From Mycolicibacterium tokaiense (GTDB lineage Bacteria > Actinomycetota > Actinomycetes > Mycobacteriales > Mycobacteriaceae): a stretch of DNA of 64,000 nt. Below the pieces are notes generated by a model. The model worked only from the letters and a program-made list of their open reading frames with translations. It searched no databases and had not been told where the DNA came from. The position numbers and the translations under genes are program-made. Within the stretch, counting starts at the first letter, position 1. Each line of letters opens with the position of its first letter. The stretch spans positions 5,518,001 through 5,582,000 of the forward strand of contig NZ_AP022600.1 in assembly GCF_010725885.1 (NCBI RefSeq), written 5' to 3'. Shown one piece after another: positions 6,278 through 23,768 of the stretch.

Positions 6278-6353
6278 CGCTGCCTCCTCTAACTAGGTGG
6301 TTCCACACTACCGGTTGACACCCGTCATGCCCGGAGCTAGGGCGCTTCCGACA

Positions 6354-7862: not shown

Positions 7863-7934
7863 GGGACCAGCCTAGAGAGGGCCGGGCCGGATCGGCTGGG
7901 TGGCCCACCTGACGGGCGGTTGTGTGGTGCAGTA

Positions 7935-9176
7935 ATGCCCGACATGGACGCTTACCTGCTGCACAACACGACACTGATCGACGGCACCGGCGCCGACCCC
8001 GTTCCGCAGGCGGCGGTGCTGGTGGAGAACGGCACCGTCAGCTGGGCCGGACCGGAGGCCGACTACACCGGGGCCGCCGTGACCCGGGTGGATCTGGGCG
8101 CCAACACGCTGTGCCCTGGGTTCTTCGACTGCCACGTGCACTTCGCGCTGCCGGGCGCCTCCGGTTCACCCCTGGAGCACGCCCTGAAGCCGCCCTCCTA
8201 CGAGATGTTCCGGCTGCTCGAGCGGCTGCGGGTGACCGTCAGCAACGGGGTGACCACCGCCAGGGACCTGATGGGCATCGACCCCGGGGTGCGCGACGCG
8301 GTGGCCGACGGACTGATCGTGGGCCCCCGATTGCTGGTCGCGGTCGAGATGTTGTCGCAGACGTCCGGGCATGCCGATTTCCACCTCCCGTCGGGCCTGA
8401 ACCTGGGGCCGCTGATCGGTGCATCGCTGGTGGACACCGTCGACGCCGCGCGGCTGCGCACCCGGGAGCTGATCCGCGCGGGCGCCGACGTCATCAAGGT
8501 CGCCTCCAGCGGCGGGGTGTCCTCCCCCAATGACGACCCGTCCTGGCTCGGCATGCGCCGGGAGATGATCGCCGCCATCGTCGAAGAGGGTCGCAACTAC
8601 GGCGGCCGGCCGGTGGCCGCCCATGCCATCGGCTACCCCGGTATCCGCGCCGCTGTCGAAGCCGGGGTGCACAGCATCGAACACGGCTACGAACTCGACG
8701 ACGAACTACGCGCTCAGATGGTGGACCAGGGAACGTTCCTGGTGCCGACGCTGCTGGAGACCATGACGCCGGTGACCGCATCACCGCAGGGCGCCGCCAA
8801 GAGCGCAAAATGGCATGCGATGGCCCACGATTCGATTGCGGCATCGGTGGCGGCCGGGGTCCGGGTGGCGGTGGGCACCGACGCCGGACTGTCCCCCGAC
8901 CACGGCACCAATCTCGCCGAGCTGGGTCTGCTGGTGCGCTTCGGCGGGCTGACCCCGCTGCAGGCCATCGTCGCAGGAACCAGCACGGCGGCCGAATTGT
9001 GTGGGGTGGCTGACAGATTGGGCTCGGTGGTGGCAGGCAAGCTGGCCGATCTGGTGGTGGTACGTGGCGACCCCCTGGCCGACATCGACGCCGTGGGCAA
9101 GCCGGAGAACATCCTGGCGGTGATCAAAGACGGCAAGCCGGTCAGCAATCGCGGCGGCTTCGGAGTTCCGGTATGA
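7935..9176 (+). CDS. Amidohydrolase family metal-dependent hydrolase (imidazolonepropionase/prolidase-like)
   Basis: A 413-residue member of the amidohydrolase superfamily. The beta-barrel metal motifs are visible: DCHVHF (first HxH), DVIKVASSGG (a lysine in the position usually carboxylated), AHAIG and SIEHG (metal histidines), and VGTDAG (catalytic aspartate). This combination resembles the Xaa-Pro dipeptidase/organophosphate-hydrolase-like branch, so an amide, peptide or lactone substrate is likely, but the actual substrate cannot be read. Two ATGs three codons apart (7935 and 7944) could serve as start. The stop overlaps the ATG of the next membrane-protein gene (ATGA), suggesting co-transcription. 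A much longer open frame upstream is antisense to dop and is not credible. Confidence 0.85.
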   Translation: MPDMDAYLLHNTTLIDGTGADPVPQAAVLVENGTVSWAGPEADYTGAAVTRVDLGANTLCPGFFDCHVHFALPGASGSPLEHALKPPSYEMFRLLERLRVTVSNGVTTARDLMGIDPGVRDAVADGLIVGPRLLVAVEMLSQTSGHADFHLPSGLNLGPLIGASLVDTVDAARLRTRELIRAGADVIKVASSGGVSSPNDDPSWLGMRREMIAAIVEEGRNYGGRPVAAHAIGYPGIRAAVEAGVHSIEHGYELDDELRAQMVDQGTFLVPTLLETMTPVTASPQGAAKSAKWHAMAHDSIAASVAAGVRVAVGTDAGLSPDHGTNLAELGLLVRFGGLTPLQAIVAGTSTAAELCGVADRLGSVVAGKLADLVVVRGDPLADIDAVGKPENILAVIKDGKPVSNRGGFGVPV

Positions 9177-10312: not shown

Positions 10313-11476
10313 GTGACCGTGCCTGACATGCAGCGCGTGCACGACTGGTTCCTGCAGCGTGGCCTTCCACTGGTGCTGACCCGGCGCGTGCGCTCCCACG
10401 CGCTCATCACCCGTTCAGCACCCGCGGTGGCCGGGGTGGGAGCGCTGACCGCGGTGATGATGCTGCTGGCCGATCTGACCGGCGACACCCATGACTACGC
10501 CTACGTCACCCGTCTCGCCGTCATCGCCGTCGTGCTCGTGGCGGCACCCTTCGTGCTGGACATCCTGCACCGGCGCGACACCGCCGCATCCGAACGGGGC
10601 CGCCGCACCGCAGCGCTGGCGGTGATGGCCATGTACGTCGTCGTGATGCCACTGGCCGTCGACGGGTGGTCGGCAGCGGCGCTGGCCGAGGTACCCGCTT
10701 TCCTGGTGGTGACGTTGCTGACCATCTGGCTGACCTACCTCGGTTTCGGGTCGATCGCGTTGTGGGCACTGCGGTTTGCCTCGGTGCAACTCGGCGCGCT
10801 GGGCAACCTGATGAGCCGGGCGCTACCGGTGCTGATGCTGGTGGTCGTGGTGTACTTCACCGGTGAGCTGTGGCAGCTCGCCGCCCGGATGAGCCGCGAA
10901 CGACTCTGGCAGACCATCGGATTCCTGTCGCTGGTGGCGTTGCTGTTCATGGTCACCACCATCCGGGACGAGGTGCGGGCGCTGCGCGAGGACCGGTCCG
11001 AACACAGCGATCCGTCGACGCTGCTGGTGGGCACGCCGTTCGCCGACGGCGTGGTCCGCCCGGTGCCGCCCGAGCGCACACCGCTCTCGCGTGCCGAGCA
11101 GTTCAACGTCGTCGCAGTGATGGTGGTGTCGCAGGCCATCCAGGTGGTCTTCTTCACCACCGGCATCTTCGTGTTCTTCCTGGCGCTGGGCATCATCGCC
11201 GTGCCCGACGACGTCACCGTGCTGTGGTCTTCGCAGCAGAGCTGCCCGGTGGGCGAACCACCCTGCGCCGGAACATGGTTCGGTATCCACGTCCCCGTCC
11301 CGCAGACCCTGGTGCACACCTCACTGTTCGTCGCCGTGCTGTCAGGGCTGTACTTCACCGTGAGCACATCGGTGGATCCGTTGTACCGGCAGCGTTTCTT
11401 CGACCCGCTGATCGCCGACGTGGCGGTCAGCCTGGCCGGCCGCGACGCCTATCTCGAGATGGAGGGCGAGCCCTAG
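10313..11476 (+). CDS. Multi-pass membrane protein, second of a tandem pair
   Basis: A 387-residue paralogue of the preceding gene with the same N-terminal pattern (WFLQRGLPLVL versus WFLAHGLPAVL), a similar set of hydrophobic segments and the same polar-loop motif (GTPFADGVVRP, then PLSRAEQFNV). It differs by a cysteine-containing extracellular-type loop (QQSCPVGEPPCAG) absent from the first copy; two cysteines seven residues apart could form a disulfide. The start could be GTG at 10313 or 10319 or ATG at 10328. Its TAG stop at 11474-11476 overlaps the stop of the convergent arr gene in a palindromic CTAG. Confidence 0.83.
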   Translation: MTVPDMQRVHDWFLQRGLPLVLTRRVRSHALITRSAPAVAGVGALTAVMMLLADLTGDTHDYAYVTRLAVIAVVLVAAPFVLDILHRRDTAASERGRRTAALAVMAMYVVVMPLAVDGWSAAALAEVPAFLVVTLLTIWLTYLGFGSIALWALRFASVQLGALGNLMSRALPVLMLVVVVYFTGELWQLAARMSRERLWQTIGFLSLVALLFMVTTIRDEVRALREDRSEHSDPSTLLVGTPFADGVVRPVPPERTPLSRAEQFNVVAVMVVSQAIQVVFFTTGIFVFFLALGIIAVPDDVTVLWSSQQSCPVGEPPCAGTWFGIHVPVPQTLVHTSLFVAVLSGLYFTVSTSVDPLYRQRFFDPLIADVAVSLAGRDAYLEMEGEP

Positions 11477-11892
11477 TCGTAGATCACGGCCTCGCCGCGG
11501 CGGCGCAGCTCCGCCAGTCCGTCACGCATGGCCTGCAGCTGCTGCGCGGAATGTCCCTCCCAGTCGGTGATCTCGCCGACGATGCGCACCGGCTGCCTGC
11601 TGCGGTAAGACCGGGTGGGATTGCCCGGGAGCTTCTTGTCGGTCACGTTGGGGTCGTCCTCGATGGGGCCCAGAGGCTCGACGAGGTAGATGTGGCCACG
11701 CCCGTCCCCCGGGGCCAGCTCCGCACCCCACACCGCGGCGTCGAGGGTCTGGGTCAGGTAGATGTGGTTCATGATGCGGCCGGGCTCGTAGTTCGACTCC
11801 CGGCCCGGAACCAGGAGATCGCCCACCGCCAGCTCGGCTTTGGTGCCGTGCAGGTACGCACCGGACTCGTGCACTTCGAAGGGTGTGGGCAC
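11473..11892 (-). CDS. arr: Rifamycin mono-ADP-ribosyltransferase Arr
   Basis: A 139-residue protein closely matching M. smegmatis Arr, which inactivates rifampicin by transferring ADP-ribose from NAD to the C23 hydroxyl. Recognisable stretches are PFEVHESGAYLHGTKAEL, RIMNHIYLTQTLDAAVWGAE and DPNVTDKKLPGNPTRSYR. His15, Tyr45 and Asp80 sit at the positions of His19, Tyr49 and Asp84 of the characterised enzyme with a constant offset of four, which supports the GTG start at 11892; an ATG at 11910 would overlap the upstream zinc-ribbon gene. It is the last gene on the strand of the carbohydrate operon, 4 bp after the zinc-ribbon gene, so it may be transcribed with it. Its stop overlaps that of the convergent membrane protein. 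Confidence 0.94.
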   Translation of the reverse strand: MPTPFEVHESGAYLHGTKAELAVGDLLVPGRESNYEPGRIMNHIYLTQTLDAAVWGAELAPGDGRGHIYLVEPLGPIEDDPNVTDKKLPGNPTRSYRSRQPVRIVGEITDWEGHSAQQLQAMRDGLAELRRRGEAVIYD

Positions 11893-11896
11893 GGCC

Positions 11897-12115
11897 TCAC
11901 ACCCCCGCATCCACAGCCACTGCCGCTCGGCAGATCCCACAGACCTCCAGCCGACGCCTCTTCCAGCGCGCCACCGGCACGAAGAACAACGTGAACTGTT
12001 TGAACTCCTCCATCCGCTGCCAGACCGTGGTGTTGTGGCAGCGCGGGCAGGTGCGCGTCTCGCCGGTCCCCAGGGACTTCTGCTTGACGCCATAACCGAA
12101 GAGGAAGAAGAACAC
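11897..12115 (-). CDS. Small zinc-ribbon protein
   Basis: A 72-residue protein with two CxxC pairs (Cys23/Cys26 and Cys59/Cys62) forming a zinc ribbon, separated by a conserved hydrophobic stretch (FKQFTLFFVPVARW). It begins with an aromatic segment, FFFLFGYGVKQKSLG, as in the actinobacterial zinc-ribbon family of unknown role. The GTG at 12115 is preceded by GAGGGG at very short spacing, so the exact start is uncertain. It lies between the ABC-transporter ATPase (22 bp away) and arr (4 bp away) on the same strand. No function can be assigned from the sequence. Confidence 0.75.
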   Translation of the reverse strand: MFFFLFGYGVKQKSLGTGETRTCPRCHNTTVWQRMEEFKQFTLFFVPVARWKRRRLEVCGICRAAVAVDAGV

Positions 12116-12137: not shown

Positions 12138-13217
12138 CTACAGGCGCACGGGCTGGCGGCTGTGCCTGGACTCCCCCGTGCTCGCATCGAAGAAGTAGGT
12201 CCGCTCCGGCGGCAGCACCAGACCGATGGTGGCACCGGCCGGCAGATCGGTGCCCGCCGGGGCGTGCACCATCACCCGGGTCTCACCCACCAGCGCGGTC
12301 ACCAGGGCATGGCTACCCAGCGGCTCCACCACGTCCACCCGGGCCGTCACTGCCCCGTCGTCGAACGCACCGAACCGCGTCTCGAGGTGTTCGGGCCGGA
12401 CACCCACCGTCACCGGACCGTCCGGTTCAGCCACCGGCCCGACGGCCGCGCCGGCGATGTGCAGGATCCCGTCTGTGACCTCGGCGGGGATCAGGTTCAT
12501 CGGAGGGCTACCCATGAACGCCGCCACGAAGGTGTTGGCGGGGCGGTTGTAGATGTCGTCGGTGGTGCCGATCTGCTGCACCGTGCCTTTGGACATCACG
12601 CACAACCGGTCCCCCAGCGTCATCGCTTCCACCTGGTCATGCGTGACGTAGATGGAGGTGACGGGGAACTCCCGGTGCAGGCGCTTGAGGTCACCGCGAA
12701 CCTGGTTGCGCAGCTTGGCATCCAGGTTCGACAGCGGTTCGTCGAGCAGGAAGGCCTGCGGCCGGCGCACCAGCGCGCGGCCCATCGCCACCCGCTGCCG
12801 CTGTCCACCGGAGAGCTGGCCGGGCTTACGATCCAGCAGGTCGGTGATCTCGAGCAGTTCCGCGGTGTCGCGCACCCGCCGGTCCACCTCGGCCCGCGGC
12901 GTCTTGCGTTGGCGCAGGCCGTAAGCCAAATTCTTGTACACCGACATGTGCGGGTACAGCGCATAGTTCTGGAACACCATCGCGATGTCACGCTCCCCTG
13001 GCGAGAGGTGGTTCACCACGTCCCCGCCGATGCGGATCTCGCCCGACGTCGGGGTGTCCAGGCCGGCCAGCAGCCGCAGTGCGGTGCTCTTCCCGCACCC
13101 CGACGGACCGACCAGGACCAGGAACTCCCCGTCGGCCACTGTCAGGTTCAGCTTCTCCAGCGCTACCAGGTCACGGCCGAAACTGCGGGTGACATCACGG
13201 AACTCGACTGCTGCCAC
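12138..13217 (-). CDS. Carbohydrate ABC transporter ATP-binding protein (UgpC/MsmK type)
   Basis: The 359-residue ATPase of a carbohydrate importer. Walker A is GPSGCGKST (37-45), followed by the Q-loop MVFQNYALYPHMSV, signature LSGGQRQRV, Walker B FLLDEPLSNLD and the H-loop THDQVEA. The C-terminal 120 residues form the regulatory OB/MOBE domain typical of UgpC/MalK-type ATPases. The GTG at 13217 with GGGGAAAG upstream was chosen; the open frame running further upstream overlaps the permease gene. It follows the second permease by 10 bp and completes a dedicated four-component importer. ATPases of this type sometimes serve several sugar importers in one cell. Confidence 0.93.
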   Translation of the reverse strand: MAAVEFRDVTRSFGRDLVALEKLNLTVADGEFLVLVGPSGCGKSTALRLLAGLDTPTSGEIRIGGDVVNHLSPGERDIAMVFQNYALYPHMSVYKNLAYGLRQRKTPRAEVDRRVRDTAELLEITDLLDRKPGQLSGGQRQRVAMGRALVRRPQAFLLDEPLSNLDAKLRNQVRGDLKRLHREFPVTSIYVTHDQVEAMTLGDRLCVMSKGTVQQIGTTDDIYNRPANTFVAAFMGSPPMNLIPAEVTDGILHIAGAAVGPVAEPDGPVTVGVRPEHLETRFGAFDDGAVTARVDVVEPLGSHALVTALVGETRVMVHAPAGTDLPAGATIGLVLPPERTYFFDASTGESRHSRQPVRL

Positions 13218-13227
13218 GGCTTTCCCC

Positions 13228-14139
13228 TCAACCCTTGATGCCGGTGCTGGCCACCGACTGAACGAAGTATTTCTGCGCACCGATGAACACCAGCAGCATC
13301 GGCAGCAGGCTCATCACGTTGGCCGCCATCAACAGTGGCCACTTGACCCGGTGCGCTCCCTGGAAGTAGCTCAGTCCCAGCGGAACCGTCATCTGGTCCT
13401 GGGAGGTGATGACGATCAGCGGCCACAGGAAGTCGTTCCAGGACGTCAGCACCGTCAAGGCGGCCAGCGTGGACAGCGCCGGCAACGACAGCGGCAGCAC
13501 CATCTTGAACAGCACCCCCAGTCGGGACGTGCCGTCGACGCGGGCGGCTTCCTCGAGTTCCACCGGCACGGTCATGAAGAACTGGCGCAGGAAGAAGATC
13601 CCGAAGGCGGTGGCCAGATTGGGCAGCATCAGAGCGCCCAGGTGGTCGATGCCCAGGCCCTCCCACACGGTGTCACCGAACCACTTCACGATCAGGAACA
13701 CCGGGATCATGGTGACCTGGAACGGCACCATCAACGTGGCCATCAGGGTGACGAACAGCGCGCCGCGGCCCAGGAACCGGACCCGGGCGAAGGCGTAGCC
13801 GGCAAGACTGCACACCAGCAGGTTGCTCACCAGGACCACTGCTGTGACCGTGAGGCTGTTGAGGAAAAAGTGGCCGAAAGGCGCTGCGGCCCAGGCCTCG
13901 GAGTAGTTCTCGAACCGGGGACTCTCCGGGAACAACACCGGCGGGAAGCGGTTGGCCTCCCCCTCGGTCTCCAGTGACGTGACCAACATCCACAGCAGCG
14001 GCACCAGCAGGATGAAGGAGACCGGGATCAGCACCAGGTGCCAGGGACTGAAGGGCAGCTTCAGCCGCCGCCGGCGAGGGGCAGGTGCGGGCACCGGCTC
14101 GACGGCCGGTGTGGCGGGGGCGGTGAGTTGGTCGGTCAT
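13228..14139 (-). CDS. Carbohydrate ABC transporter permease (MalG-like)
   Basis: A 303-residue inner-membrane permease with six predicted membrane helices after a proline-rich cytoplasmic N-terminus. The EAA loop that contacts the ATPase is visible as EEAARVDGTSRLGVLFKMVLP. The C-terminus ends in the VQSVASTGIKG tail common to MalG-like partners. The ATG overlaps the stop of the MalF-like permease by 4 bp. Together they form the heterodimeric channel of a CUT1-type importer for oligosaccharides or glycosides. Confidence 0.93.
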   Translation of the reverse strand: MTDQLTAPATPAVEPVPAPAPRRRRLKLPFSPWHLVLIPVSFILLVPLLWMLVTSLETEGEANRFPPVLFPESPRFENYSEAWAAAPFGHFFLNSLTVTAVVLVSNLLVCSLAGYAFARVRFLGRGALFVTLMATLMVPFQVTMIPVFLIVKWFGDTVWEGLGIDHLGALMLPNLATAFGIFFLRQFFMTVPVELEEAARVDGTSRLGVLFKMVLPLSLPALSTLAALTVLTSWNDFLWPLIVITSQDQMTVPLGLSYFQGAHRVKWPLLMAANVMSLLPMLLVFIGAQKYFVQSVASTGIKG

Positions 14140-15029
14140 GAGTAGTGCACATGTCTGCGAGCGAGGCGGAACTGGATGCCGGTGATCACCAGGATCACCA
14201 CGAACAGCGCATAGGCCATGGCGGCGGCGTAGCCCGCATCGAACTGGACGAAGGCGCGGTCCCACAGGTAGTAGACGATCACGGTGGTGGCTCGCAGGGG
14301 ACCACCCCGGGTGGTGGCGTACACCTCGTCGAACAACTGCAGGGCATTGATGGTCAGCCACACCACCAGGAATAGGTTGGCCGGCCCCAGCAGCGGCACC
14401 GTGATGGTGCGGAACCGGGTGGCCGCCGAGGCGCCGTCGATGGCGGCTGCTTCGTGCAGCTCGGCCGGGACCCCCTGCAGGGCGGCCAGATACACGATGA
14501 CCGAGAACCCGGTCCACCCCCAGATCGTCATGGCCACGATCACGAACAGCGCCTGCGACGGGGAGGCCAGGAACGGCTGGGACGGCAGACCGACGGCGTT
14601 GAGCCCGGCGTTGACCAGTCCGTAGTCGCGGTCGGTCAGCCACAGGAAGATGATGCCCTGGGAGATCGTCGACACCGCCATGGTGACGTAGGCGGCGGTG
14701 CGGTACACCGAGATGAACCGCAGGGAGCGGTTCATCGCGGCGGCGATGAGCAGGCCCACCAGCATGGTGCCGGGCACGAACAACGCGGTGTAGACGATGG
14801 TGTGCTTGACCGATTCCAGGAACATCGGGTCTTCGGCGAGCTTGCGGTAGTTGTCGAAGCCCACCCAGGGTGTCCTGTCCGACAACAGGTCCGAATCCTG
14901 GAAGGACAGCTGCAGCGACATCAGCACCGGCAGCAGCCCGAAGACACCGATCAGCAGCGCCGCGGGGCTGACCAGCGCCCAGCCGCTCACGGTGTCCGAG
15001 CGGCCGAGCCTGCTCATCAAGGTCGTCAT
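14136..15029 (-). CDS. Carbohydrate ABC transporter permease (MalF-like)
   Basis: A 297-residue permease with six hydrophobic segments; the EAA loop reads HEAAAIDGASAATRFRTITVP. It begins MTTLMSRLGRSDTV and belongs to the CUT1 family. It starts 6 bp after the substrate-binding protein gene and overlaps the MalG-like gene by 4 bp, so subunits are made from one message. The substrate cannot be derived from the permease; context (GH4 glycosidase, AgaS, tagatose-bisphosphate aldolase) points to an alpha-galactoside or amino-galactose-containing sugar. Confidence 0.93.
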   Translation of the reverse strand: MTTLMSRLGRSDTVSGWALVSPAALLIGVFGLLPVLMSLQLSFQDSDLLSDRTPWVGFDNYRKLAEDPMFLESVKHTIVYTALFVPGTMLVGLLIAAAMNRSLRFISVYRTAAYVTMAVSTISQGIIFLWLTDRDYGLVNAGLNAVGLPSQPFLASPSQALFVIVAMTIWGWTGFSVIVYLAALQGVPAELHEAAAIDGASAATRFRTITVPLLGPANLFLVVWLTINALQLFDEVYATTRGGPLRATTVIVYYLWDRAFVQFDAGYAAAMAYALFVVILVITGIQFRLARRHVHYS

Positions 15030-15035
15030 CCGGCG

Positions 15036-16319
15036 CTACTTGCCTGCCAGTGCGTCGTCGGCGGTCTGCGCCGCGGCGTCCAGTGCCTCCTTGGGCTGCT
15101 GCTCACCGAGCAGCACCGACACGATGGCCTGGCCCAGGGCCTCGGAGATCGCCGGATACTGCTCGACCGTCGGCCGGGCTTTCTCGACATTGCCGAGATT
15201 CTCCACGAACACCCCGACACCGGGCAGGCCTTTGTCGAGTTCGGCCACGAACGCCTGGTCTTCACCCACGGATGCCCGGGTGGGCAGATCGCCGGTGCCC
15301 AGGGAGAATTCCCTGACCTGCTCCGGGGCGGTGAGCCACTGCACGAAGTCGACGGCCGCCTGCTTGCGCTCGTCGCCGTTGTCGAACACCACCCAGTTGT
15401 CCGGGCCCGAGATGGTCTGATGTCCCCCGGACGAGCCGGCGAAGGTGGGCATCACCTGCACCCCGTACTCGATGTCGGACAGCGAGCTCAGATCCCACGG
15501 ACCGGTGATCAACATCCCGACCTTGCCGCTGTTCATCAGCTTGGGCCCGGTCTCGTTGGTGGTGTCCAGGTACAGCGACTTGTCGGTCACGGCCATCTGC
15601 TGCAGCGTCGTCAGCGCCTCGACGCCGGCCTCGGAGTTGAACGCCGCCCGCTCGTTGTCGTCGGTCAGGATGTCGCCGCCGGCCTCCCAGAGCATGGGCA
15701 GGTAATGCCACACCGTGTCCTCGCTGCCGTCGGCGGGGATCAGCCAGCCGTACTGCCCCTTGGAAGGATCGGTCAGTTTGGCTGCGGCGGAGCGGAAGTC
15801 GTCCCACGTCCAGTCGGCGCTGGGCGGCTCGATACCGGCCTCGGCGAACAGCTGCTTGTTGTAGACGATCGCCAGGTTGTCCACCAGCGCGGGCACCCCG
15901 ACCACTTTGTCGCCGACGGTGGCCGCGGCGCGCTCTCCCGGGTAGAAGTCGTCCCACTGCCACGCCGGCTCGGAGACGTAGGAGGACATGTCCACCAGCT
16001 GCGGGATCGCCGCGATGTTGGGGGACCAGGAGCCGAACATGTACGCCACGTCGGGGGCGCTGTCGCCGCGGACCGCGGTGAGCACCTTCTGCAGCACCAG
16101 GTCGTTGCTGGAATAGAGCTCAGAGATTTCCACATCGGGATGCTCGGAGTTGTACTTGTCCACCAGGGACTTGAAGACGGTGCCCTCGGTGTCCTGGAAG
16201 CCGTGCCAGACGGCGATCTCGGTGGGACCCGATGACGAGGAGTCACCACCGCCGCCGCAGGCGGACGCGGCGAGGGCGACCACGGCCCCCAGGGTGGCGA
16301 GAAGGCGTGAGCGTTTCAC
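15036..16319 (-). CDS. Sugar-binding lipoprotein of the ABC importer
   Basis: A 427-residue extracellular solute-binding protein. The N-terminus MKRSRLLATLGAVVALAASAC is a lipoprotein signal peptide with the lipobox cysteine at residue 21, followed by a glycine/serine linker. The mature part starts with the EIAVWHGFQDTEGTVFKSLV motif typical of family 1 carbohydrate-binding proteins (UgpB/MalE type). It sits 2 bp after the GH4 gene and 6 bp before the permeases. It captures the sugar outside the membrane and delivers it to the permease pair. Confidence 0.93.
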   Translation of the reverse strand: MKRSRLLATLGAVVALAASACGGGGDSSSSGPTEIAVWHGFQDTEGTVFKSLVDKYNSEHPDVEISELYSSNDLVLQKVLTAVRGDSAPDVAYMFGSWSPNIAAIPQLVDMSSYVSEPAWQWDDFYPGERAAATVGDKVVGVPALVDNLAIVYNKQLFAEAGIEPPSADWTWDDFRSAAAKLTDPSKGQYGWLIPADGSEDTVWHYLPMLWEAGGDILTDDNERAAFNSEAGVEALTTLQQMAVTDKSLYLDTTNETGPKLMNSGKVGMLITGPWDLSSLSDIEYGVQVMPTFAGSSGGHQTISGPDNWVVFDNGDERKQAAVDFVQWLTAPEQVREFSLGTGDLPTRASVGEDQAFVAELDKGLPGVGVFVENLGNVEKARPTVEQYPAISEALGQAIVSVLLGEQQPKEALDAAAQTADDALAGK

Positions 16320-16321
16320 AG

Positions 16322-17638
16322 TCAGAACTCCTTCGTTGAGGGGACACGCAGGGCTTCGGGTAGCAGATCACCGTGGGCGGTGGTCAATTCGTCGCACAGC
16401 TGCCAGATCTGGTCGACGGTCAGGGTGGCCGCGGTGTTGGGATCCACCATGGCCGCCGCCCGGACCAGCCGCGGATCGCCGTCGAGTGCGGCCTGCACCG
16501 TCAGATCCACCGGACCCAGGAAGTTGCGGTTCAGCGCGGCGCACTGGGCCGGCAGGTCGCCCACCTTCATCGGGTGCGCGCCCAGGGCGTCGAGCACGGT
16601 CGGTACCTCGACGGCCAGCCCGCCCGGCAGATTGGTGATGAGGGCATCGTTGGCGACGTTGGCGGAGATCACCCGCACCGTCCCGGTCTCCAGGGAATGG
16701 ATGACCTGCGGGGCGTATTCGGTGGAACTGGTGTCGATCTCGAGGGTTCGCCCGTGTTCCAGCTCGGACCGCACGCGAGCGTACTCGGCGAGGTTGGCCG
16801 CGCTGATGTCGACGTACTCACCGACATTGAGCCGCAGCCGCTCGACTTCCTCGGGGTGCCGCAAGTACCACGGCACGTATTCACTGCTGTGCTCGCTGGT
16901 CTCGGTCGGGTAGTAACCGAGCCGGCGGTACATGTCCACCCGGACCCGTCGGCGCAGTTCGGGGTCGGCGGCGATGCGCTGATCCAGCAGCGGGTAGAGA
17001 TCCTGGCCGGCCCGCTCCCACTTCAGCACCCACGCTTGGTGATTGACCCCGGCCGACCAGTAACTCACCTCGTCGTAGGGCACGCCGACGATCTCGCAGA
17101 GGCCGACCATGGTCCAGTACACCGAGTGGCACAACCCGAGCACCTTCAGCTGCGGCGCCACCCGGTGCAGATAGGTCACGTTCATGGCCATCGGGTTGGT
17201 GTAGTTCAGCAGCCACGCGTCCGGGCAGACCTCCAGCATGTCGCGGGCGATGCCGTCCAGCACCGGAAATGTGCGCAGTCCGCGGAACACCCCGCCGATG
17301 CCGATGGTGTCGCCGATGGTCTGGTGCAGGCCGTACTTCTCGGGGATCTCGAAGTCGCGCACGGTCGCGTCGTGCATGCCGACCTGGATGACGTTGATGA
17401 CGTAGTTCGCGCCGTCGAGGGCCCGGCGGCGATCCAGGGAGGCGACCACCTCGGGGGTGGCCCCGGTCTGCGCGGCGGTGGCGCGGGTGATGGCTTCGGC
17501 GGTCTCCAGGCGCTCGGCGTCGATATCGTGCAGTACCACCCGTACCGAGCCCAGCTCGGGGAAAGAGAAGATGTCGCCGAGCAGTTCGCGGGTGAACTCC
17601 ACACTGCCCGCTCCGATGATGACGATGCTGGGTTTCAT
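16322..17638 (-). CDS. GH4 family glycosidase (alpha-galactosidase MelA-like)
   Basis: A 438-residue NAD- and Mn-dependent glycosidase. The Rossmann glycine motif is at the N-terminus (IVIIGAGSVEF), and the metal site includes Cys170 and His171 (GLCHSVYW) and His200 (GVNHQAW), matching E. coli MelA Cys/His positions within three residues. GH4 enzymes cleave through an oxidation-elimination route and act on alpha- or beta-glycosides; the CHSV form is usual in alpha-galactosidases and alpha-glucuronidases. It acts in the cytoplasm on a sugar imported by the adjacent ABC system. It overlaps the EamA gene by 4 bp. An alpha-galactosaminidase activity is possible but not shown by sequence. Confidence 0.88.
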   Translation of the reverse strand: MKPSIVIIGAGSVEFTRELLGDIFSFPELGSVRVVLHDIDAERLETAEAITRATAAQTGATPEVVASLDRRRALDGANYVINVIQVGMHDATVRDFEIPEKYGLHQTIGDTIGIGGVFRGLRTFPVLDGIARDMLEVCPDAWLLNYTNPMAMNVTYLHRVAPQLKVLGLCHSVYWTMVGLCEIVGVPYDEVSYWSAGVNHQAWVLKWERAGQDLYPLLDQRIAADPELRRRVRVDMYRRLGYYPTETSEHSSEYVPWYLRHPEEVERLRLNVGEYVDISAANLAEYARVRSELEHGRTLEIDTSSTEYAPQVIHSLETGTVRVISANVANDALITNLPGGLAVEVPTVLDALGAHPMKVGDLPAQCAALNRNFLGPVDLTVQAALDGDPRLVRAAAMVDPNTAATLTVDQIWQLCDELTTAHGDLLPEALRVPSTKEF

Positions 17639-18573
17639 CGGACGTGCTCCCTGGATGCGCCGACCGCGGGTGTGGGTGCCTCGCCACGCTTTTCGTCGCT
17701 GTACACCATGAGCGTCGACCCGACCAGCGCCAGCACGATGGCGATGGCGCCGTAGGGGCTCGGCAGAGTCTGGTAGGCGATCAACGAAATGATCACGGTG
17801 AGTGTGGGTGCCAGGGCATTGGTGGTGGGCGCGACGATGGCGGCCTTGCCTCTGGCCAGCGCCATCACCAAGAACAGGGCGCCGGCCGCGTTGAGCACCT
17901 GGGTGGCTGCCGTCAGTGCCGGTGCCTGCCACGGGAAGTCGGTCGGCAGGCCGCCGAGCGAAATGAGCGCGACGGGAATCAGGAGCAACCCGCTGATCGT
18001 CATCCAGCCGAAGGTGGTGGCTTCGTTGACCCCGATGGTCGCGGTCTTGCGCATGAAGTAGGCCTGCACCCCCCACGCCACGCAGATCAGGATCGCCAGC
18101 AGCAGCCACGGGCCGGAGGATTCGTCGGATTCACCACCGGTGATCGTGAAGAGCACGATGGCGGCGAGGGCCAGGACGAGGCCGACGACGGCCAGCGGTG
18201 AGATGCGTTCGCGCAGCAGCACCATCGCCATCACGACGGTGATCGCCGGCGAGATCGAGATGATCGGGAAGATCAGGTAGGCCGGCCCCATGGTCAGCGC
18301 CTGGAAGAGCACGAGTTGGCCGCCCGCTCCGGTGAGCCCGATCAGCAGGCCGTAGATGGTGGCGGCCGGGCGGCGGTCCCACTTCTGCCCGCGCAGGATG
18401 AACGCGGCGGGAATGATCATGGTCAACGCCCAGATGCTGTAGATCATCTCGTCGGGGTAGCCATACCAGGTGGCGGGCAGCGCGGAGAACGCTCCCCACA
18501 CGCCCCAGAACAGGATGAGCAGCGCCGCGTAGAAGATCCAGCTGCGCCTTCCGGTGGTCGATGCGGTGGTCAT
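17635..18573 (-). CDS. EamA/DMT-family membrane transporter
   Basis: A 312-residue protein with ten hydrophobic segments in two EamA halves, the GRT/drug-metabolite transporter pattern (for example WGVWGAFSALPATWYGYP in the first half and NALAPTLTVIISLI in the second). Such carriers usually move small metabolites, in either direction. Its position between the sugar kinase and the glycosidase, with 4-bp overlaps on both sides, makes a role with a pathway sugar or by-product likely. That gives the operon two different transporters, which is unusual for a single-substrate route. Confidence 0.85.
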   Translation of the reverse strand: MTTASTTGRRSWIFYAALLILFWGVWGAFSALPATWYGYPDEMIYSIWALTMIIPAAFILRGQKWDRRPAATIYGLLIGLTGAGGQLVLFQALTMGPAYLIFPIISISPAITVVMAMVLLRERISPLAVVGLVLALAAIVLFTITGGESDESSGPWLLLAILICVAWGVQAYFMRKTATIGVNEATTFGWMTISGLLLIPVALISLGGLPTDFPWQAPALTAATQVLNAAGALFLVMALARGKAAIVAPTTNALAPTLTVIISLIAYQTLPSPYGAIAIVLALVGSTLMVYSDEKRGEAPTPAVGASREHVR

Positions 18574-19541
18574 GACGACCTCTTCTGTAGTTGGTGGACG
18601 GCTGCGGAGGTCAGCGGATGACCCGCCCGCTTGGCCGCGTAGAGGGCAGCCCCGGCGGCCGGATCGAGAATGGGAGGCTGCAGGTCGTACTTGGCGGGCA
18701 GCAGCTCCAGGGCCTGCCGGAAAGCGTGGAGAAAGCCGGTGTCGGTGAACATCCCGCCGGAGTACGACACCGGGATCCGGTCGAATTCGGTGAATCCGAC
18801 GACAGTGCGGGTGGTCTCGACCAGCTGGACCAATTCGGCTGCCGCCGTGGTGATGATCTTGGCGGCCGCCTGGTCGCCGTGGCGCACCGCCTCGCACACC
18901 GTGGTGGCCAGCGCGGCGATGGAGCCCCGGTTGCCCTCCCACTGTTCGATCACCAGGCCCACCACGTCCAGGTCGCCGGCCAATTCCAGCCGCTCGCGCA
19001 GCAGGCCGTAGAGCGGACCCTTGACCAGCCGGCCGTCGCTCATCCGGCTGAATGTGTTGAGACCCTGGGTGGCAACCCAGTAGGCCGAGCCCTCGTCACC
19101 GAACAGCTCGCCCCAGCCGCCGACCCGGCGCCCGACTCCGAGCCGTTCGCCGTAGGTCATGGACCCGGTGCCACAGATGACGTTGATGCCGTCTTCGCCG
19201 GCCAGTGACCCTGCCCAGCCGCACACCATGTCGTTGTCACAGTGGTAGCGGTGGTGTCCGAGCACCTGTGCGGGCACTGCGTCGAGCTGTGCCAGATCAG
19301 CACTGGCCTCGCCGTAACCGGGCAGCCCGAAGAAGGCGAAGTCGATGTCGGCGGCCGAGATCGCCGCCGCCGCGCACACGTCGGAGACCCCTTGGCGCAG
19401 AACCTGTTCCACGACCTCGAAACCCTTGGCGAAGTAGTACGAGCTGGCCGCGGTTGCGCGGGCCAGGGTCCGGCCGTCGTCATCGACGAGCGCGAAGGCG
19501 GTCTTGGAACCTCCGCCGTCGACTCCCAGGTAGCGGGCCAT
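18570..19541 (-). CDS. BadF/BcrA-family sugar kinase (N-acetylglucosamine kinase-like)
   Basis: A 323-residue member of the ASKHA ATPases in the BadF/BadG/NAGK branch. It has the phosphate-1 loop YLGVDGGGSKTAFALVDDDG, the adenosine-side GTGSMTYG motif, and GGWGELFGDEGSAYWV near the middle, the signature of GlcNAc- and glucosamine-kinase-like proteins. It would phosphorylate an amino sugar at C6 in the cytoplasm. Between the SIS isomerase and the EamA gene, it is the best candidate to make the isomerase's substrate, for example galactosamine-6-phosphate. The exact sugar is inferred from context. Confidence 0.85.
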   Translation of the reverse strand: MARYLGVDGGGSKTAFALVDDDGRTLARATAASSYYFAKGFEVVEQVLRQGVSDVCAAAAISAADIDFAFFGLPGYGEASADLAQLDAVPAQVLGHHRYHCDNDMVCGWAGSLAGEDGINVICGTGSMTYGERLGVGRRVGGWGELFGDEGSAYWVATQGLNTFSRMSDGRLVKGPLYGLLRERLELAGDLDVVGLVIEQWEGNRGSIAALATTVCEAVRHGDQAAAKIITTAAAELVQLVETTRTVVGFTEFDRIPVSYSGGMFTDTGFLHAFRQALELLPAKYDLQPPILDPAAGAALYAAKRAGHPLTSAAVHQLQKRSS

Positions 19542-19547
19542 GGCTGC

Positions 19548-20675
19548 TCACCGCTCCATCGGGTAGATGGTGACACCCTTGACGACGCGGCTCACTTCGC
19601 CGGAAGGGAAGGGATTGTCCGGCGTCTTGTGGTATTCGAGCGAGGTGAAGAGGGCCAGGTATTGGGCGAACACCAGATAGGCCACCGCAACGGTGGAGTC
19701 GTCGAGGCCCTCGAGTCCGGGCAGCACCACGACATCTCCGGCTGCCGCCGGCACCGGCTCAGTGCTGAGTACCACCACACTCTCGCTGCCCAGCTGGCCG
19801 CGGATCTCGGCCACCATGTCCAGGTCGTAACGCCGGGTGTGCGGATCAGTGGACAGGTAGACCACCGCCAGGGTGTCACTGTCGAGCACCGATTTGGGGC
19901 CGTGGCGGAAACCCAGCGGAGAGTCGAAATACGTGACCACCTCCCCCGCAGTCAGTTCCAGGAGTTTGAGGGCGGATTCGCGGGCCAGCCCCACCAGGGG
20001 TCCGCTGCCGAGATAGACGAACCGCTGTTTCTTCGCCTGCGCCAGGGCGCGGATGTCGGCTCTGCGGTCGATCACGGACTGGGCCGCCCGGGCCAGCGCG
20101 TCGACCGCTGCGGGGGCGGTGCCCGCCAGCGTCAGCAGGCACGCGAGCATCATCGACGTCAGGCTCGAGGTCATCGCGAATCCGGCATCGTTGGTGCGCT
20201 CGGGCATGTACAGCACCAGCGAATCGGCGCGCCCGGCGTGGGCGCGGCCGAGCTGACCGTCCCGGTCACAGGTCAGGACCAGATGCCACACCCGGTCCAC
20301 GATCTCGTCGGCGAGCGCGGTGGTGGCCAGGCTCTCGGGGCTGTTACCCGAGCGGGCGAACGAGACCAGCAGGGTCGGGGTGTGAGGTTCGAGGTGGTCG
20401 AGCGGGCCGGCGACGATGCTGGTGGTCGCGATCGCTTCGACGCGGCAGTTCAGGTGGCGGCGCAGTGCCGGAGCGACGATGGTGCCTGCGAAGGCGGAAC
20501 TGCCCGCACCGGTGAGGATGACCCGCAGCCCGGGCGCGGCGGTGACCTCGCGCAGGAACCTGTGCGCCGTGTCGTCGATCCCCGCGGCGAGCTCCCGCCA
20601 GGCCTCGGGTTGCTGCCCGATTTCCAGAATGGTTGCGCCGCCGTCTACTTGGGCGGGTACGACAGAGTGGTTCAT
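19548..20675 (-). CDS. agaS: AgaS-like SIS-domain sugar-phosphate isomerase/deaminase
   Basis: A 375-residue protein with two SIS domains. The first has TGAGSSAFAG and SFARSGNSPES, the second YLGSGPLVGLARESALKLLELT followed by GFRHGPKSV. This arrangement matches AgaS, the galactosamine-6-phosphate deaminase/isomerase that yields tagatose-6-phosphate and ammonia. GlmS-like and AgaS-like SIS proteins are hard to tell apart by motif alone, but here it is coupled by a 4-bp overlap to a tagatose-bisphosphate aldolase subunit, which favours AgaS. Confidence 0.85.
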   Translation of the reverse strand: MNHSVVPAQVDGGATILEIGQQPEAWRELAAGIDDTAHRFLREVTAAPGLRVILTGAGSSAFAGTIVAPALRRHLNCRVEAIATTSIVAGPLDHLEPHTPTLLVSFARSGNSPESLATTALADEIVDRVWHLVLTCDRDGQLGRAHAGRADSLVLYMPERTNDAGFAMTSSLTSMMLACLLTLAGTAPAAVDALARAAQSVIDRRADIRALAQAKKQRFVYLGSGPLVGLARESALKLLELTAGEVVTYFDSPLGFRHGPKSVLDSDTLAVVYLSTDPHTRRYDLDMVAEIRGQLGSESVVVLSTEPVPAAAGDVVVLPGLEGLDDSTVAVAYLVFAQYLALFTSLEYHKTPDNPFPSGEVSRVVKGVTIYPMER

Positions 20676-21979
20676 CGGGCGACTCCAGTGTTCAGGCAGG
20701 CCAGGGCGTAGGGACGGAGGGCGTCACGGACCCGGTCGATCACCAGGTCCTGCGGATCGGGTCGAAGGTCGCCGGCCCGTATTCGGTCGTATTGGCTGGG
20801 GAGATACTGGCTGATCAGCGGCATCGGTATCCCGGTGCCACGCAGATTGGCCAGCAGGGTCTCCCGAGCCGCCTCGATCTCGGCGTCCGGCCAGTAGTAG
20901 CGGAGCCGGTCGCTGTAGCTGTACCGGCGCGCGGTGCGCTGCGTCAGCGGGTCGCCGTGGTAGTAGCCCCGCCAATAGGTGGGGTCGGCCAGCATCTGGC
21001 GCTCCACCACCTCGACGAGGTTGGACCGCCGGGTCGCGGGGACGAGTTCTGACTCGATGTCGGCGAGCGCGAACAGCGCCTCTCGCATCGCGAAGGTCAG
21101 GCCGGGCCCCACTTTCAGGATGGCCCAGTGGTCTTCGACCAGTTCGCGCAGTTGGGCCGGGCGCTGATAGTCCGTGGAGTGGGCTTCGAACACCAGGTTG
21201 TCCTGATCATCGAGGACGTGGCGCAGCTCGGCGGTGGCGCTGTGCTGATAGTCCACCACGGCCAGATGGTCGAACTCGACCCCGGGCTGCACCACCAGCG
21301 CGATCACCCGCGGCCAGACGTCATCGTGCCCCACCTCCGCGAATGCCGACCGGTGGGCCGCCAGGGTGCGGCGGGCGTGCGCGGCCGGTGTGGGGGTCAG
21401 TCCGTGCAATGTCTCGTGCGCTCCCCCGGGCACGGGCACCTCGGTGCCGATGACGTAGACCGGCCCGGGCAATCCGGCGCGGTGCGCCGTGCTTTCGGCC
21501 ACCCGCAGCAGCCGGGCCGACCGCTGCGCCACCGTCTCGTCGGTCAGGGTGTCGGGGTCGTCCGCGCAGGACATGCTGCAGTCCAGGTGGATCTTGGTGT
21601 AGCCGGCTTCGACGTAGGCGGCGATGAGGTCCTCGGCCTTGGCCATGGCGTCCTCCGCAGGCTCGCCCTGCCATCGGTTGGGGCCCAGGTGGTCACCGCC
21701 GAACACCACCTGTCCCCGGGCGAAACCGCGGCGGTCGGCGATGTCGAGAACCCGGTCGCGAAAGTCCGCCGGACGCAGGCCGGTGTAGCCGCCGAACTGG
21801 TCGACCTGATTCGACGTCGCCTCGATCAGGAGGTAGGAGCCGTCGGCGGCCGCCTGATCGATCGCGGCCTCCACCACGGTGGGGTGCGCCGAGCACACCG
21901 AGTAGACCCCGACGGGCTCACCGGCCTTGTGCCGGTGGATGGTCTGCAGCAGGGGGTTCATCAGGGACGTCGGGCTCAT
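20672..21979 (-). CDS. Tagatose-1,6-bisphosphate aldolase non-catalytic subunit (GatZ/KbaZ-like)
   Basis: A 435-residue GatZ/KbaZ/AgaZ-family protein. This family stabilises and activates the class II tagatose-bisphosphate aldolase and is found almost only with that enzyme. Family stretches include GVYSVCSAHPTVVEAAI, EATSNQVDQFGGYTG, FGGDHLGPNRWQ and KIHLDCSMSCADD. Overlaps of 4 bp at both ends couple it to the catalytic aldolase and to the AgaS-like gene. Its presence is the strongest evidence that the pathway runs through tagatose-1,6-bisphosphate. Confidence 0.9.
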   Translation of the reverse strand: MSPTSLMNPLLQTIHRHKAGEPVGVYSVCSAHPTVVEAAIDQAAADGSYLLIEATSNQVDQFGGYTGLRPADFRDRVLDIADRRGFARGQVVFGGDHLGPNRWQGEPAEDAMAKAEDLIAAYVEAGYTKIHLDCSMSCADDPDTLTDETVAQRSARLLRVAESTAHRAGLPGPVYVIGTEVPVPGGAHETLHGLTPTPAAHARRTLAAHRSAFAEVGHDDVWPRVIALVVQPGVEFDHLAVVDYQHSATAELRHVLDDQDNLVFEAHSTDYQRPAQLRELVEDHWAILKVGPGLTFAMREALFALADIESELVPATRRSNLVEVVERQMLADPTYWRGYYHGDPLTQRTARRYSYSDRLRYYWPDAEIEAARETLLANLRGTGIPMPLISQYLPSQYDRIRAGDLRPDPQDLVIDRVRDALRPYALACLNTGVAR

Positions 21980-22869
21980 CGCGCACCCACCTCACCGACC
22001 GCTGCGGCACCGACGGCCCGGCACAGCTGCGCCACGGTGGCCGTGATCGCGTCCCGGCCTGCCGCGAGATAGGGCCGTGGATCGGCGTTGTCGCCCAACG
22101 CCTCTCGCACACCGGCGGTGAACGCGACGTTGAGCGCGGTGCCGATGTTGATCTTGCGGACCCCCCGCTGCGCGGCACGCCGGAGTTGCTCATCGGACAC
22201 CCCGGAAGATCCGTGCAGCACCAGCGGGACGCTGACGGACCCGGCCAGCCGGCCGATCAGATCGTGGTCCAGTTGGGCTGCGCGCGTGGTCATCGCGTGG
22301 GTGCTGCCGACGGCCACGGCCAGGGCGTCGACCCCGGTCGCCGCGACGAAGGCGGCAGCCTCGTCGGGATCGGTGCGGGCACCGGAGGCGTGGGCGCCAC
22401 CTTTGCCGCCGATCTCACCCAACTCGGCCTCGACCCACAGTCCGGCGGCGTGCGCATCTCCGGCGACCGCGCGGGTGCGGTGCACGTTGTCCGCGTAGGG
22501 CAGGTGCGCGGCGTCGATCATCAACGACGAGGCACCGAGTGCGACGCCGGTGGTGATGACCTCGCGGACCAGGGCCATGTCCTGCAGGTGATCCAGGTGG
22601 ATGGCCAGGGGCGCCGAAGACTGTGCCGCGATCTGGGCGCACGCCGCCAACAGCGGGGCGACGCGTCCGCCGTGGAAGGCGACGGTGTTCTCACTGATCT
22701 GCAGAATGGCTGCGGCGCAGGCCTGTTCGACACCGGCGGCGATGCCCTCGATGTGTTCGAGGGTGATCACGTTGAAGGCCGGGACGGCAGTTGCGGCGGC
22801 GGCGGCCGCGGTCACCAGTTCGGCGGTGGCGGTGATGGTCACGGCTGCGACAACCAACCGGTGTGACAT
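21976..22869 (-). CDS. Class II tagatose/fructose-bisphosphate aldolase (GatY/KbaY-like)
   Basis: A 297-residue zinc-dependent aldolase that would split tagatose-1,6-bisphosphate into dihydroxyacetone phosphate and glyceraldehyde-3-phosphate. Zinc- and substrate-binding motifs are visible: AIHLDHLQD, the EAELGEIGGKGGAH loop, LHGSSG and KINIGT. It is the first gene of the minus-strand operon, whose promoter lies in the 113-bp gap to the divergent DeoR-type regulator. The N-terminal region is unusually alanine-rich (TAAAAAATAVPAFNV). Paired with the GatZ-like subunit, it is more likely a tagatose- than a fructose-bisphosphate aldolase. Confidence 0.9.
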   Translation of the reverse strand: MSHRLVVAAVTITATAELVTAAAAAATAVPAFNVITLEHIEGIAAGVEQACAAAILQISENTVAFHGGRVAPLLAACAQIAAQSSAPLAIHLDHLQDMALVREVITTGVALGASSLMIDAAHLPYADNVHRTRAVAGDAHAAGLWVEAELGEIGGKGGAHASGARTDPDEAAAFVAATGVDALAVAVGSTHAMTTRAAQLDHDLIGRLAGSVSVPLVLHGSSGVSDEQLRRAAQRGVRKINIGTALNVAFTAGVREALGDNADPRPYLAAGRDAITATVAQLCRAVGAAAVGEVGAR

Positions 22870-22982
22870 GGATAACGCATGCCTCGATCATGAGAAGATC
22901 GCTCACAACGCGCAACAGAACGCGCAGAAGCGATCAGTAAAACTGAGCGTTTGGTGTGTGCGGACGAAGGGAGCAGGCGGCG
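22870..22982. promoter_or_regulatory. Divergent promoter/operator region of the sugar operon
   Basis: This 113-bp gap must hold promoters for the aldolase-headed operon (minus) and the DeoR-family regulator (plus). It contains a direct repeat AACGCGCA at 22907-22914 and 22919-22926, 12 bp apart, and an imperfect inverted repeat AAAC/GTTT around 22940-22952. Direct repeats of this spacing are a plausible DeoR/AgaR-type operator; this is inference. A ribosome binding site AAGGGAG precedes the regulator's ATG. Confidence 0.5.
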
Positions 22983-23768
22983 ATGTCGATCAGGCGGACT
23001 GACCGCATGCGAGAAGTGTTGGCGCTCTTGCGCGGCCGCGGTGACGTCGGATCCCGCGAACTGTGCCTCGAGCTCAACATCTCCCCCGCCACCCTGCGCC
23101 GGGATCTGAGCGAACTGGAGGAGCAGGGGCTGCTGGTCCGCACCCACGGCGGCGCCCGGGCGCTGGACCCCAGCGGCAGCGAGATCCCGGTGCGACTGCG
23201 CGATCACCGCACGGTGGCGATCAAACGGCGGATCGCCCAGCACGCGGCCGCGCTGGTGCCCGCCGGTCCGCAATCGGTGGCGCTGACCGGCGGCGTCACC
23301 ACCGGCGAGGCCGCCCGGGCGTTGAAGGGCAGGCCGAACATGACCATCGTGACCAACTCCCTGACCATCGCCGCGGATTGCGCCGTGGACGCCCACATGA
23401 AGGTGATCATGACCGGAGGCCTGGTGCGGGCGAACTCCCTGGAGGCCGTCGGCCCGATGTCCGAACACGCCTTCCAGGTGATCACGGTGGGCACAGCAAT
23501 CCTGGGCGCGGACGGGATGTCCGCCGAAGTGGGCGCCACCACCTTCGACGAAGCCGAAGCCAGGACCGCAATCGCCATGGCCGCCAACGCACAACGCGTT
23601 GTGGTGGCCGTCGACGGCTCCAAGATCGGCGTGGTGACACTCGCCAAGATGGCCACCTTGGACCGTCTCGATCACCTGGTGACGGACTCCACCGCCGACC
23701 CCGGACAACTGGAGCGGATCGAAGCGGCCGGGGTGCGGGTGCACGTTGTCGATGTGGTGGACGTCTGA
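22983..23768 (+). CDS. DeoR/GlpR-family transcriptional regulator (AgaR-like)
   Basis: A 261-residue DeoR-family repressor. The N-terminal winged helix (about 5-60) includes VGSRELCLELNISPATLRRDLSELEEQGLLVRTHGGA, and the C-terminal DeoRC sensor (about 80-250) has LTGGVTTGEAARAL and the DGMSAEVGATTFDEAEA segment. This family usually senses a phosphorylated sugar intermediate. It is divergent from the aldolase-headed operon and most likely represses it until tagatose- or galactosamine-phosphate accumulates. The ATG at 22983 was chosen for its AAGGGAG site; the open frame begins earlier but lacks one. Confidence 0.92.
   Translation: MSIRRTDRMREVLALLRGRGDVGSRELCLELNISPATLRRDLSELEEQGLLVRTHGGARALDPSGSEIPVRLRDHRTVAIKRRIAQHAAALVPAGPQSVALTGGVTTGEAARALKGRPNMTIVTNSLTIAADCAVDAHMKVIMTGGLVRANSLEAVGPMSEHAFQVITVGTAILGADGMSAEVGATTFDEAEARTAIAMAANAQRVVVAVDGSKIGVVTLAKMATLDRLDHLVTDSTADPGQLERIEAAGVRVHVVDVVDV

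Follow-up and report, generated by a model that had tools for sequence, protein, structure and literature searches.

Which sugar does a ten-gene operon of Mycolicibacterium tokaiense bring into the cell, and does that sugar carry an acetyl group? The operon lies in a window of 64,000 nucleotides (C1:5518001-5582000 of a single-contig genome of 6.33 Mb; positions below follow window numbering), where its genes occupy the minus strand from 22869 to 12138. The best explanation, to which we assign a probability of roughly 60%, is a variant of the pathway for N-acetylgalactosamine (Aga) and galactosamine (Gam) that works without a phosphotransferase system (PTS) and would take in non-acetylated galactosamine, either free or as an alpha-glycoside. 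Indeed, the galactosamine-type pathway proposed in the original prediction is supported by a family match for every step and by the joint presence of gatZ, agaS and a BadF-type kinase gene in all the 61 loci of the genus that were compared (the window and 60 others); these loci were collected through agaS, so that agaS is present in each of them by selection.

Gene content and proposed pathway

Neighbourhoods of up to 20 kb around agaS were compared in 60 other genomes of the genus and in three outside it, a few of them being shorter at contig ends. The gene order is the same in relatives, so the operon is not a chance arrangement. Consecutive genes overlap by 4 bp at five of the nine junctions, as the earlier description 'mostly with 4-bp overlaps' fairly conveyed, and gaps of 6, 2, 6 and 10 bp are found at the remaining four (start codons re-read). 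Family profiles recovered every gene that had been named; the range given for them, 12138..22869, leaves out a divergent DeoR-family regulator (22983-23768) and its conserved operator. The features, in the order of transcription of the operon, are the following (ABC, ATP-binding cassette; GH4, glycoside hydrolase family 4).

21976..22869, minus strand: GatY-like class II (tagatose-1,6-bisphosphate) aldolase; PF01116, 262.7 bits
20672..21979, minus strand: GatZ/KbaZ, putative aldolase partner and/or tagatose-6-phosphate/fructose-6-phosphate C4-epimerase; TIGR02810, 638 bits, cut-off of 568.8 passed
19548..20675, minus strand: AgaS family, proposed galactosamine-6-phosphate deaminase/isomerase; TIGR02815, 449.8 bits; PDB 3c3j, E 1.1e-88
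18570..19541, minus strand: BadF-type hexosamine kinase, proposed galactosamine 6-kinase; PF01869, 181 bits
17635..18573, minus strand: EamA-family carrier, proposed uptake of free amino sugar; PF00892, 85 bits
16322..17638, minus strand: GH4 NAD-dependent glycosidase of alpha-galactosidase (MelA) type; PRK15076, 566 bits, over cut-off; PF02056, PF11975
15036..16319, minus strand: solute-binding lipoprotein of the ABC importer; PF01547, 145.7 bits; top PDB match 7bvt
14136..15029, minus strand: ABC importer permease 1; UgpA-like, 142.7 bits, under cut-off
13228..14139, minus strand: ABC importer permease 2; UgpE/MalG-like, PF00528
12138..13217, minus strand: MalK-type ATPase of the importer; PF00005, TOBE_2 and OB_MalK
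22983..23768, plus strand: divergent DeoR-family regulator (AgaR/GlpR-like); PF00455 and PF08220; NCBIfam AgaR, 155 bits, under the cut-off of 260
22931..22949, minus strand: palindromic operator-like site CGCTCAGTTTTACTGATCG in the region between regulator and operon; conserved alignment block

In the proposed route, the ABC importer would bring in a small alpha-galactosaminide or an oligosaccharide of the Gal-alpha-GalN type (GalN, galactosamine), to be split inside the cell by the GH4 enzyme, and the EamA carrier would take up the free sugar. The BadF-type kinase would then form galactosamine-6-phosphate, which AgaS would deaminate and isomerise to tagatose-6-phosphate and ammonia, a reaction that has genetic support for AgaS of E. 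coli and is proposed here by homology. From tagatose-6-phosphate two ways out are conceivable, which may operate singly or together: phosphorylation by PfkA and cleavage by the GatY(Z) aldolase, or epimerisation at C4 by GatZ to fructose-6-phosphate. AgaS aligns over its full length to the E. coli protein and matches TIGR02815 with E 6.6e-135 (449.8 bits against a cut-off of 529); E. coli agaS mutants are unable to grow on Aga or Gam (PMC3668189). For the binding of free-amine sugars, a mycobacterial precedent is provided by UspC (PMC4929945).

The transport genes vary among the loci. Among the 57 loci that are uncut downstream, EamA, GH4 and the ABC importer occur together in 42, GH4 and the importer without EamA in 8, and EamA alone in 7, where comparison with the genes of the window reveals no other transporter. 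In one locus of the EamA-alone group (L121) a GH4 match was seen, below the 300-bit threshold; otherwise, the GH4 and ABC genes co-occur. From this pattern it seems that the two uptake systems, EamA and the importer, may feed one pathway, GH4 being needed solely for the cargo of the importer. One or the other of the two transporters is kept in 57 of 57 uncut loci. Two rearranged loci (L118 and L120) have the GH4, solute-binding protein and permease genes beyond the regulator, and EamA is absent from them.

The E. coli aga/gam regulon (agaR, kbaZ, agaA, agaS, kbaY, agaI and PTS genes) shares with the operon the AgaS, KbaZ/GatZ and class II tagatose-1,6-bisphosphate aldolase steps and a repressor resembling the DeoR family, and its K-12 cluster likewise comes without a gene for a tagatose-6-phosphate kinase. 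It differs in that phosphorylation takes place during PTS uptake and agaA is present (as a pseudogene in K-12), whereas the mycobacterial operon lacks a deacetylase and combines an ABC importer and EamA with a GH4 glycosidase and a cytoplasmic kinase. The Shewanella N-acetylgalactosamine (GalNAc) pathway of Leyn et al. (2012) is said to include a dedicated deacetylase. Non-PTS uptake by a permease (AgaP) and a sugar kinase (AgaK) followed by AgaS are features that it has in common with the operon (PMC12118421); conversely, it employs an outer-membrane protein together with the permease, and neither an ABC importer nor GH4 is named for it. The parts are known, and their combination in mycobacteria, where importer, carrier and kinase replace a PTS, is new as far as our searches show; in the open-licence literature searched, no work on this operon or on a galactosamine pathway in soil mycobacteria is described. 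A table of nutrients for M. smegmatis and M. tuberculosis does include D-galactosamine (PMC4248442). The operon offers a concrete proposal of such a pathway in soil-type members of the genus, and it suggests that the Aga logic can work with an importer and a kinase instead of a phosphotransferase system.

Acetylation of the substrate and competing explanations

In the Aga/Gam pathway the AgaA (or NagA) deacetylase serves the GalNAc branch only, the Gam branch proceeding without it. That neither a deacetylase nor a tagatose-6-phosphate kinase is encoded, as had been predicted, is true of the operon. No NagA or NagB was found in the 60 fetched loci of the genus (tblastn, E<=1e-5, with M. tokaiense NagA and NagB as queries), and the three loci from outside the genus contained no gene labelled as either (blastp, E<=1e-10). 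Moreover, NagA is missing from 6 of the 61 AgaS genomes (G405, G443, G464, G552, G671 and G678), three of which have no NagA match of any kind, while the other three have partial ones, none better than E 6.8e-5; since all six are listed at 99-100% completeness, the operon appears to persist without the known deacetylase. The operon is thus kept with or without NagA, which favours a non-acetylated substrate and agrees with the earlier claim that no deacetylase is needed.

Several observations weigh against a non-acetylated substrate or against the pathway as a whole. A nagB-nagA pair lies far from the operon in M. tokaiense (nagA, at C1:651538-652650, passes the NagA cut-off), and NagA is present in 55 of the 61 AgaS genomes, M. 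tokaiense included (52 over the cut-off and 3 just under), so that an unlinked NagA could act in trans. NagA is encoded elsewhere in the genome, and in E. coli it can take over the role of AgaA (PMC3668189). That the operon lacks it is therefore slight evidence and does not by itself mean that the sugar has no acetyl group; the earlier claim is not secured by this absence alone. NagA (E<=1e-30) was found in 340 of the 396 sampled genomes of the genus, and its absence is not commoner among AgaS genomes (6/61) than among the others (50/335), a comparison that indicates independence only. No sequence feature of the kinase, the binding protein or the GH4 enzyme reveals the acetylation state, and an unrecognised deacetylase may be present. 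GatY and AgaS score under their curated NCBIfam cut-offs, that of AgaS being reached in 0 of 394 genomes of the class. Finally, the retention of at least one of the two transporters in every uncut locus does not reach significance, since by chance one would expect about one locus to lack both, and other transporters among the unassigned neighbours were not looked for.

The nagB-nagA pair, the frequency of NagA in AgaS genomes and the replacement of AgaA by NagA in E. coli also speak for a GalNAc pathway, in which the kinase would phosphorylate GalNAc and the unlinked NagA would remove the acetyl group before AgaS acts. The nearest kinases with structures, mostly N-acetyl-hexosamine kinases, point in the same direction: the structural relatives in PDB are MurNAc/GlcNAc kinase, a hexokinase and NAG kinases (NAGK). 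We hold this pathway to be unlikely, though deserving of attention, since NagA is missing from the six genomes named above and from the neighbourhood of every one of the 60 loci. In addition, the operon kinase has a tyrosine, part of a Tyr-Tyr pair, where asparagine stands in four printed alignments of five structural matches, two of the four being NAGK chains, and the pair is conserved in at least 61 of the 62 operon kinases examined. The asparagine presumably contacts the sugar, and its substitution by tyrosine is a plausible change of specificity; as a single substitution it is not decisive, and an assignment of kinase specificity from the sequence was not retained.

Two further arguments concerning the acetyl group were set aside. 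GH4 enzymes include ChbF, and the use of GH4 chemistry as an argument against an N-acetyl group was dropped because the substrate of ChbF is described as monoacetylchitobiose-6-phosphate. The same source gives N-acetyl-glucosaminyl-glucosamine as the product of ChbG from diacetylchitobiose (PMC9402603, for both compounds). An amidohydrolase at about 7932-9176 (+) was rejected as a hidden deacetylase, its score to NagA being 28.5 bits only; a close copy stands beside the operon in one of the 63 loci (L083), and there is one weak partial match (L107). The C-terminal part of the stretch 6297-9176 (+) belongs to the amidohydrolase superfamily and is related to an Xaa-Pro dipeptidase model, below its cut-off.

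The GH4 enzyme shares a CHSV motif with E. coli MelA, contains both the N-terminal and the C-terminal domain (PF02056, PF11975) and passes the curated cut-off of the 'alpha-galactosidase' model PRK15076, and E. coli GatY is a member of the galactitol (Gat) pathway (PMC10101011). The operon could on these grounds serve the use of alpha-galactosides, galactitol or tagatose, with an ordinary alpha-galactosidase and a sugar phosphate that is not an amino sugar. This is improbable in view of the failure of E. coli agaS mutants on both Aga and Gam (PMC3668189) and of the seven uncut loci which, at the thresholds used, lack GH4 and the ABC importer and still keep the kinase and agaS (agaS being there by selection). 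Furthermore, no dehydrogenase is seen among the profile matches of the ten genes, and LacC, the tagatose-6-phosphate kinase, is over its cut-off of 409.55 in 0 of the 61 AgaS genomes.

Recycling of galactosamine from the cell's own arabinan, to which the original prediction had linked the operon, is in our judgement very improbable. The paper that founded the subject of arabinan galactosamine reportedly speaks of slow growers in its title, while the named AgaS carriers are environmental species that we take to be rapid growers: the names found among 23 loci cover M. chubuense, M. chlorophenolicum, M. hodleri, M. sphagni, M. canariasense, M. yunnanensis, M. frederiksbergense and an M. vanbaalenii isolate, among others. 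AgaS (E<=1e-60) was found, moreover, in only 61 of the 396 sampled genomes of the genus; the wall genes ppgS and Rv3779 were not searched for. The premise itself is sound, as mycobacterial arabinan can carry D-galactosamine (PMC7502851, PMC5964476, PMC9671496), in alpha linkage according to the title of a reference. The taxonomic argument is not airtight, because small amounts of galactosamine are also reported in Corynebacterium (PMC9671496).

Proposed exits from tagatose-6-phosphate

Galactosamine use by the proposed pathway would pass through tagatose-6-phosphate, and a phosphofructokinase had been predicted to supply the step left vacant by the missing kinase. This can be so, since pfkA is stated to make tagatose-1,6-bisphosphate from tagatose-6-phosphate (PMC10101011) and one PfkA is present in the M. 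tokaiense genome; the vacancy, however, is no anomaly, because the E. coli K-12 aga cluster has no tagatose-6-phosphate kinase gene either, PfkA makes the bisphosphate, and GatZ and KbaZ of E. coli have C4-epimerase activity, which gives a second possible exit. These two proteins, long called chaperones, epimerise fructose-6-phosphate to tagatose-6-phosphate, and the reverse reaction was reported for GatZ in earlier work cited by the same source (PMC11907403); a proposal that KbaZ/AgaZ is itself the kinase is also on record (review PMC12118421). The best LacC match in M. tokaiense is a FruK-type kinase beside a gene whose translation reads as a fructose-type PTS.

The active-site residues named for E. 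coli GatZ are C20, E44, D87, H88, E171, H257 and K279 (PMC11907403), and all seven are present in GatZ of the window (C29, E53, D96, H97, E180, H267 and K289). They are conserved in 60-62 of the 62 operon GatZ sequences, the exceptions being alignment gaps. According to the same source, the mechanism is offered as a model and the named residues do not explain the difference in activity. GatY of the window aligns to E. coli KbaY in the motifs HLDH, EAELGE, STHAM and HGSSG, and is below the cut-off of all the NCBIfam GatY/KbaY/tagatose-1,6-bisphosphate aldolase models. The operon may serve as an in vivo test case for GatZ/KbaZ as tagatose-6-phosphate epimerase versus aldolase helper.

The position of gatY varies among the 60 loci: it is at the operon head in 42, beyond the regulator in 10 and not nearby in 8. 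The possibility that GatZ makes GatY dispensable in the last 8 was rejected, as all these genomes carry an unlinked gatY2, which is 51-58% identical to gatY of the window and has in every case a LacC-like match at a distance of 17 bp to 2.2 kb; hence the aldolase is kept, and a kinase-free route is unproven. The search for gatY2 covered 13 of the 61 carriers, the 8 lacking gatY in the operon and five having it, and among the five it was also found in two (G541 and G672). Five neighbourhoods of gatY2 were read, from four of the eight genomes and from G541, which has both gatY copies (L187, L188, L189, L190 and L193). A DeoR-type match adjoins gatY2 in all five, an FGGY kinase is near it (confirmed by profile in L187 and alike in appearance in the other four), and the LacC-like gene is a PfkB-type hexose kinase where profiles were run (L187 and L188). 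This second mycobacterial locus encodes a class II aldolase of the same family as that of the window and differs in being unlinked and in having its own PfkB-type kinase, and neither agaS nor gatZ was matched in any of the five neighbourhoods; it is possibly a route for tagatose or a related ketose. Five gatY2 matches (G672, G541, G740, G422 and G490) have one in-frame TGA within the matched stretch.

Regulation, distribution and a possible link to biofilm polymers

The divergent DeoR-type protein, found in 58 of the 60 fetched loci of the genus, probably represses the operon from a conserved palindrome in front of it. The intergenic palindrome CGATCAGTTTTNCTGATCG occurs with no more than 2 mismatches in 53 of 59 regulatory regions, and 0 of 1180 mononucleotide shuffles came within 3 mismatches; it is not present in the two loci outside the genus that were tested (7 and 8 mismatches). 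The operon copy (G000:C1:5540931-5540949) is the sole match with up to 3 mismatches in the M. tokaiense genome. Among the 15 genomes searched, the operon copy has at most 2 mismatches in 14 and 3 in one, and all the matches away from the operon but one are at 3 mismatches. The remaining one is a two-mismatch copy distant from the operon, at G443:C1:4751635-4751653, and may mark a second member of the regulon. Scans with consensus promoters and terminators gave no signal above shuffled sequence, and PADLOC gave no match to the kinase and AgaS.

Across the class the AgaS profile is matched widely and mostly at low scores: at E<=0.001 there is a match in 187 of 394 sampled genomes in all, and above 430 bits in 7 of them, of which four belong to the genus and three do not. 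The weaker matches are probably GlmS-like sugar isomerases. The organism names among the relatives of the kinase are, for the 120 matches listed, Mycobacterium or Mycolicibacterium. In two of the outside loci (L143 and L145) agaS and the kinase gene are accompanied by GH4, an ABC importer and a DeoR-type gene, gatZ being absent at the locus. The third (L144, in genome G199 of the same class and another family) has the same core as the window, gatZ-agaS-kinase-eamA-gatY, at 48-67% identity; it differs in that no GH4/ABC set is recognised in its 17 kb and in that a GntR/UTRA regulator adjoins the cluster.

A gene of M. tokaiense for a protein of the polygalactosaminidase family GH114 (L040 8502-9470 (+), G000:C1:5058780 region), about 0.47 Mb from the operon, raises the question of whether the galactosamine could come from a polymer. 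Its product has a signal-peptide-like start, as for a secreted protein, and an Asp and a Glu aligned with those of Ega3 at VDPDNVDGY and NEQC, which we take to be the catalytic residues. We know of no GH4 enzyme with exo-alpha-galactosaminidase activity. The operon could be the cytoplasmic stage of a pathway that feeds on biofilm polymers of de-N-acetylated alpha-1,4-galactosamine, from fungi (galactosaminogalactan) or bacteria (Pel): the secreted GH114 enzyme would cut the polymer, the ABC importer would bring in the oligomers, GH4 would act as an exo-alpha-galactosaminidase and GatZ would lead to fructose-6-phosphate, so that neither a tagatose-6-phosphate kinase nor an aldolase would be strictly needed. 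This extension is doubtful; if true, it would link mycobacteria to the breakdown of fungal and bacterial biofilm matrix. GH114 is a family of endo-alpha-1,4-galactosaminidases whose bacterial members are hardly characterised (PMC12054363), and Pel is mainly a GalN-GalNAc alpha-1,4 repeat (PMC9135694).

GH114 was found in 38 of the 396 genomes of the genus (seven scores of 259-292 bits, thirty of 137-171 bits and one broken match of 70 bits). AgaS and GH114 are found together in 21 of the 61 AgaS genomes against 5.9 expected (Fisher p 1.3e-9, without phylogenetic correction). The association stays after stratification of 340 genomes by size (20 with both; Cochran-Mantel-Haenszel z 5.0), though some size bins taken singly do not reach significance; the stratified subset leaves out the 56 genomes that lack NagA, of which four have GH114. 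Against the polymer route, 40 of the 61 AgaS carriers have no GH114, 17 GH114 genomes have no AgaS, and the gene is not linked to the operon in M. tokaiense. Membership of GH114 in the operon's regulon was rejected: the search covered 15 of the 21 genomes that have AgaS as well as GH114, and no operator match with up to 3 mismatches lay close to GH114 in any of them, the shortest distance being 10 kb (G702).

Just beyond the operon end, an open reading frame at 11473-12093 (-) matches the rifampin ADP-ribosyltransferase Arr in its C-terminal part, at residues 68-206, with 257 bits against a cut-off of 250.

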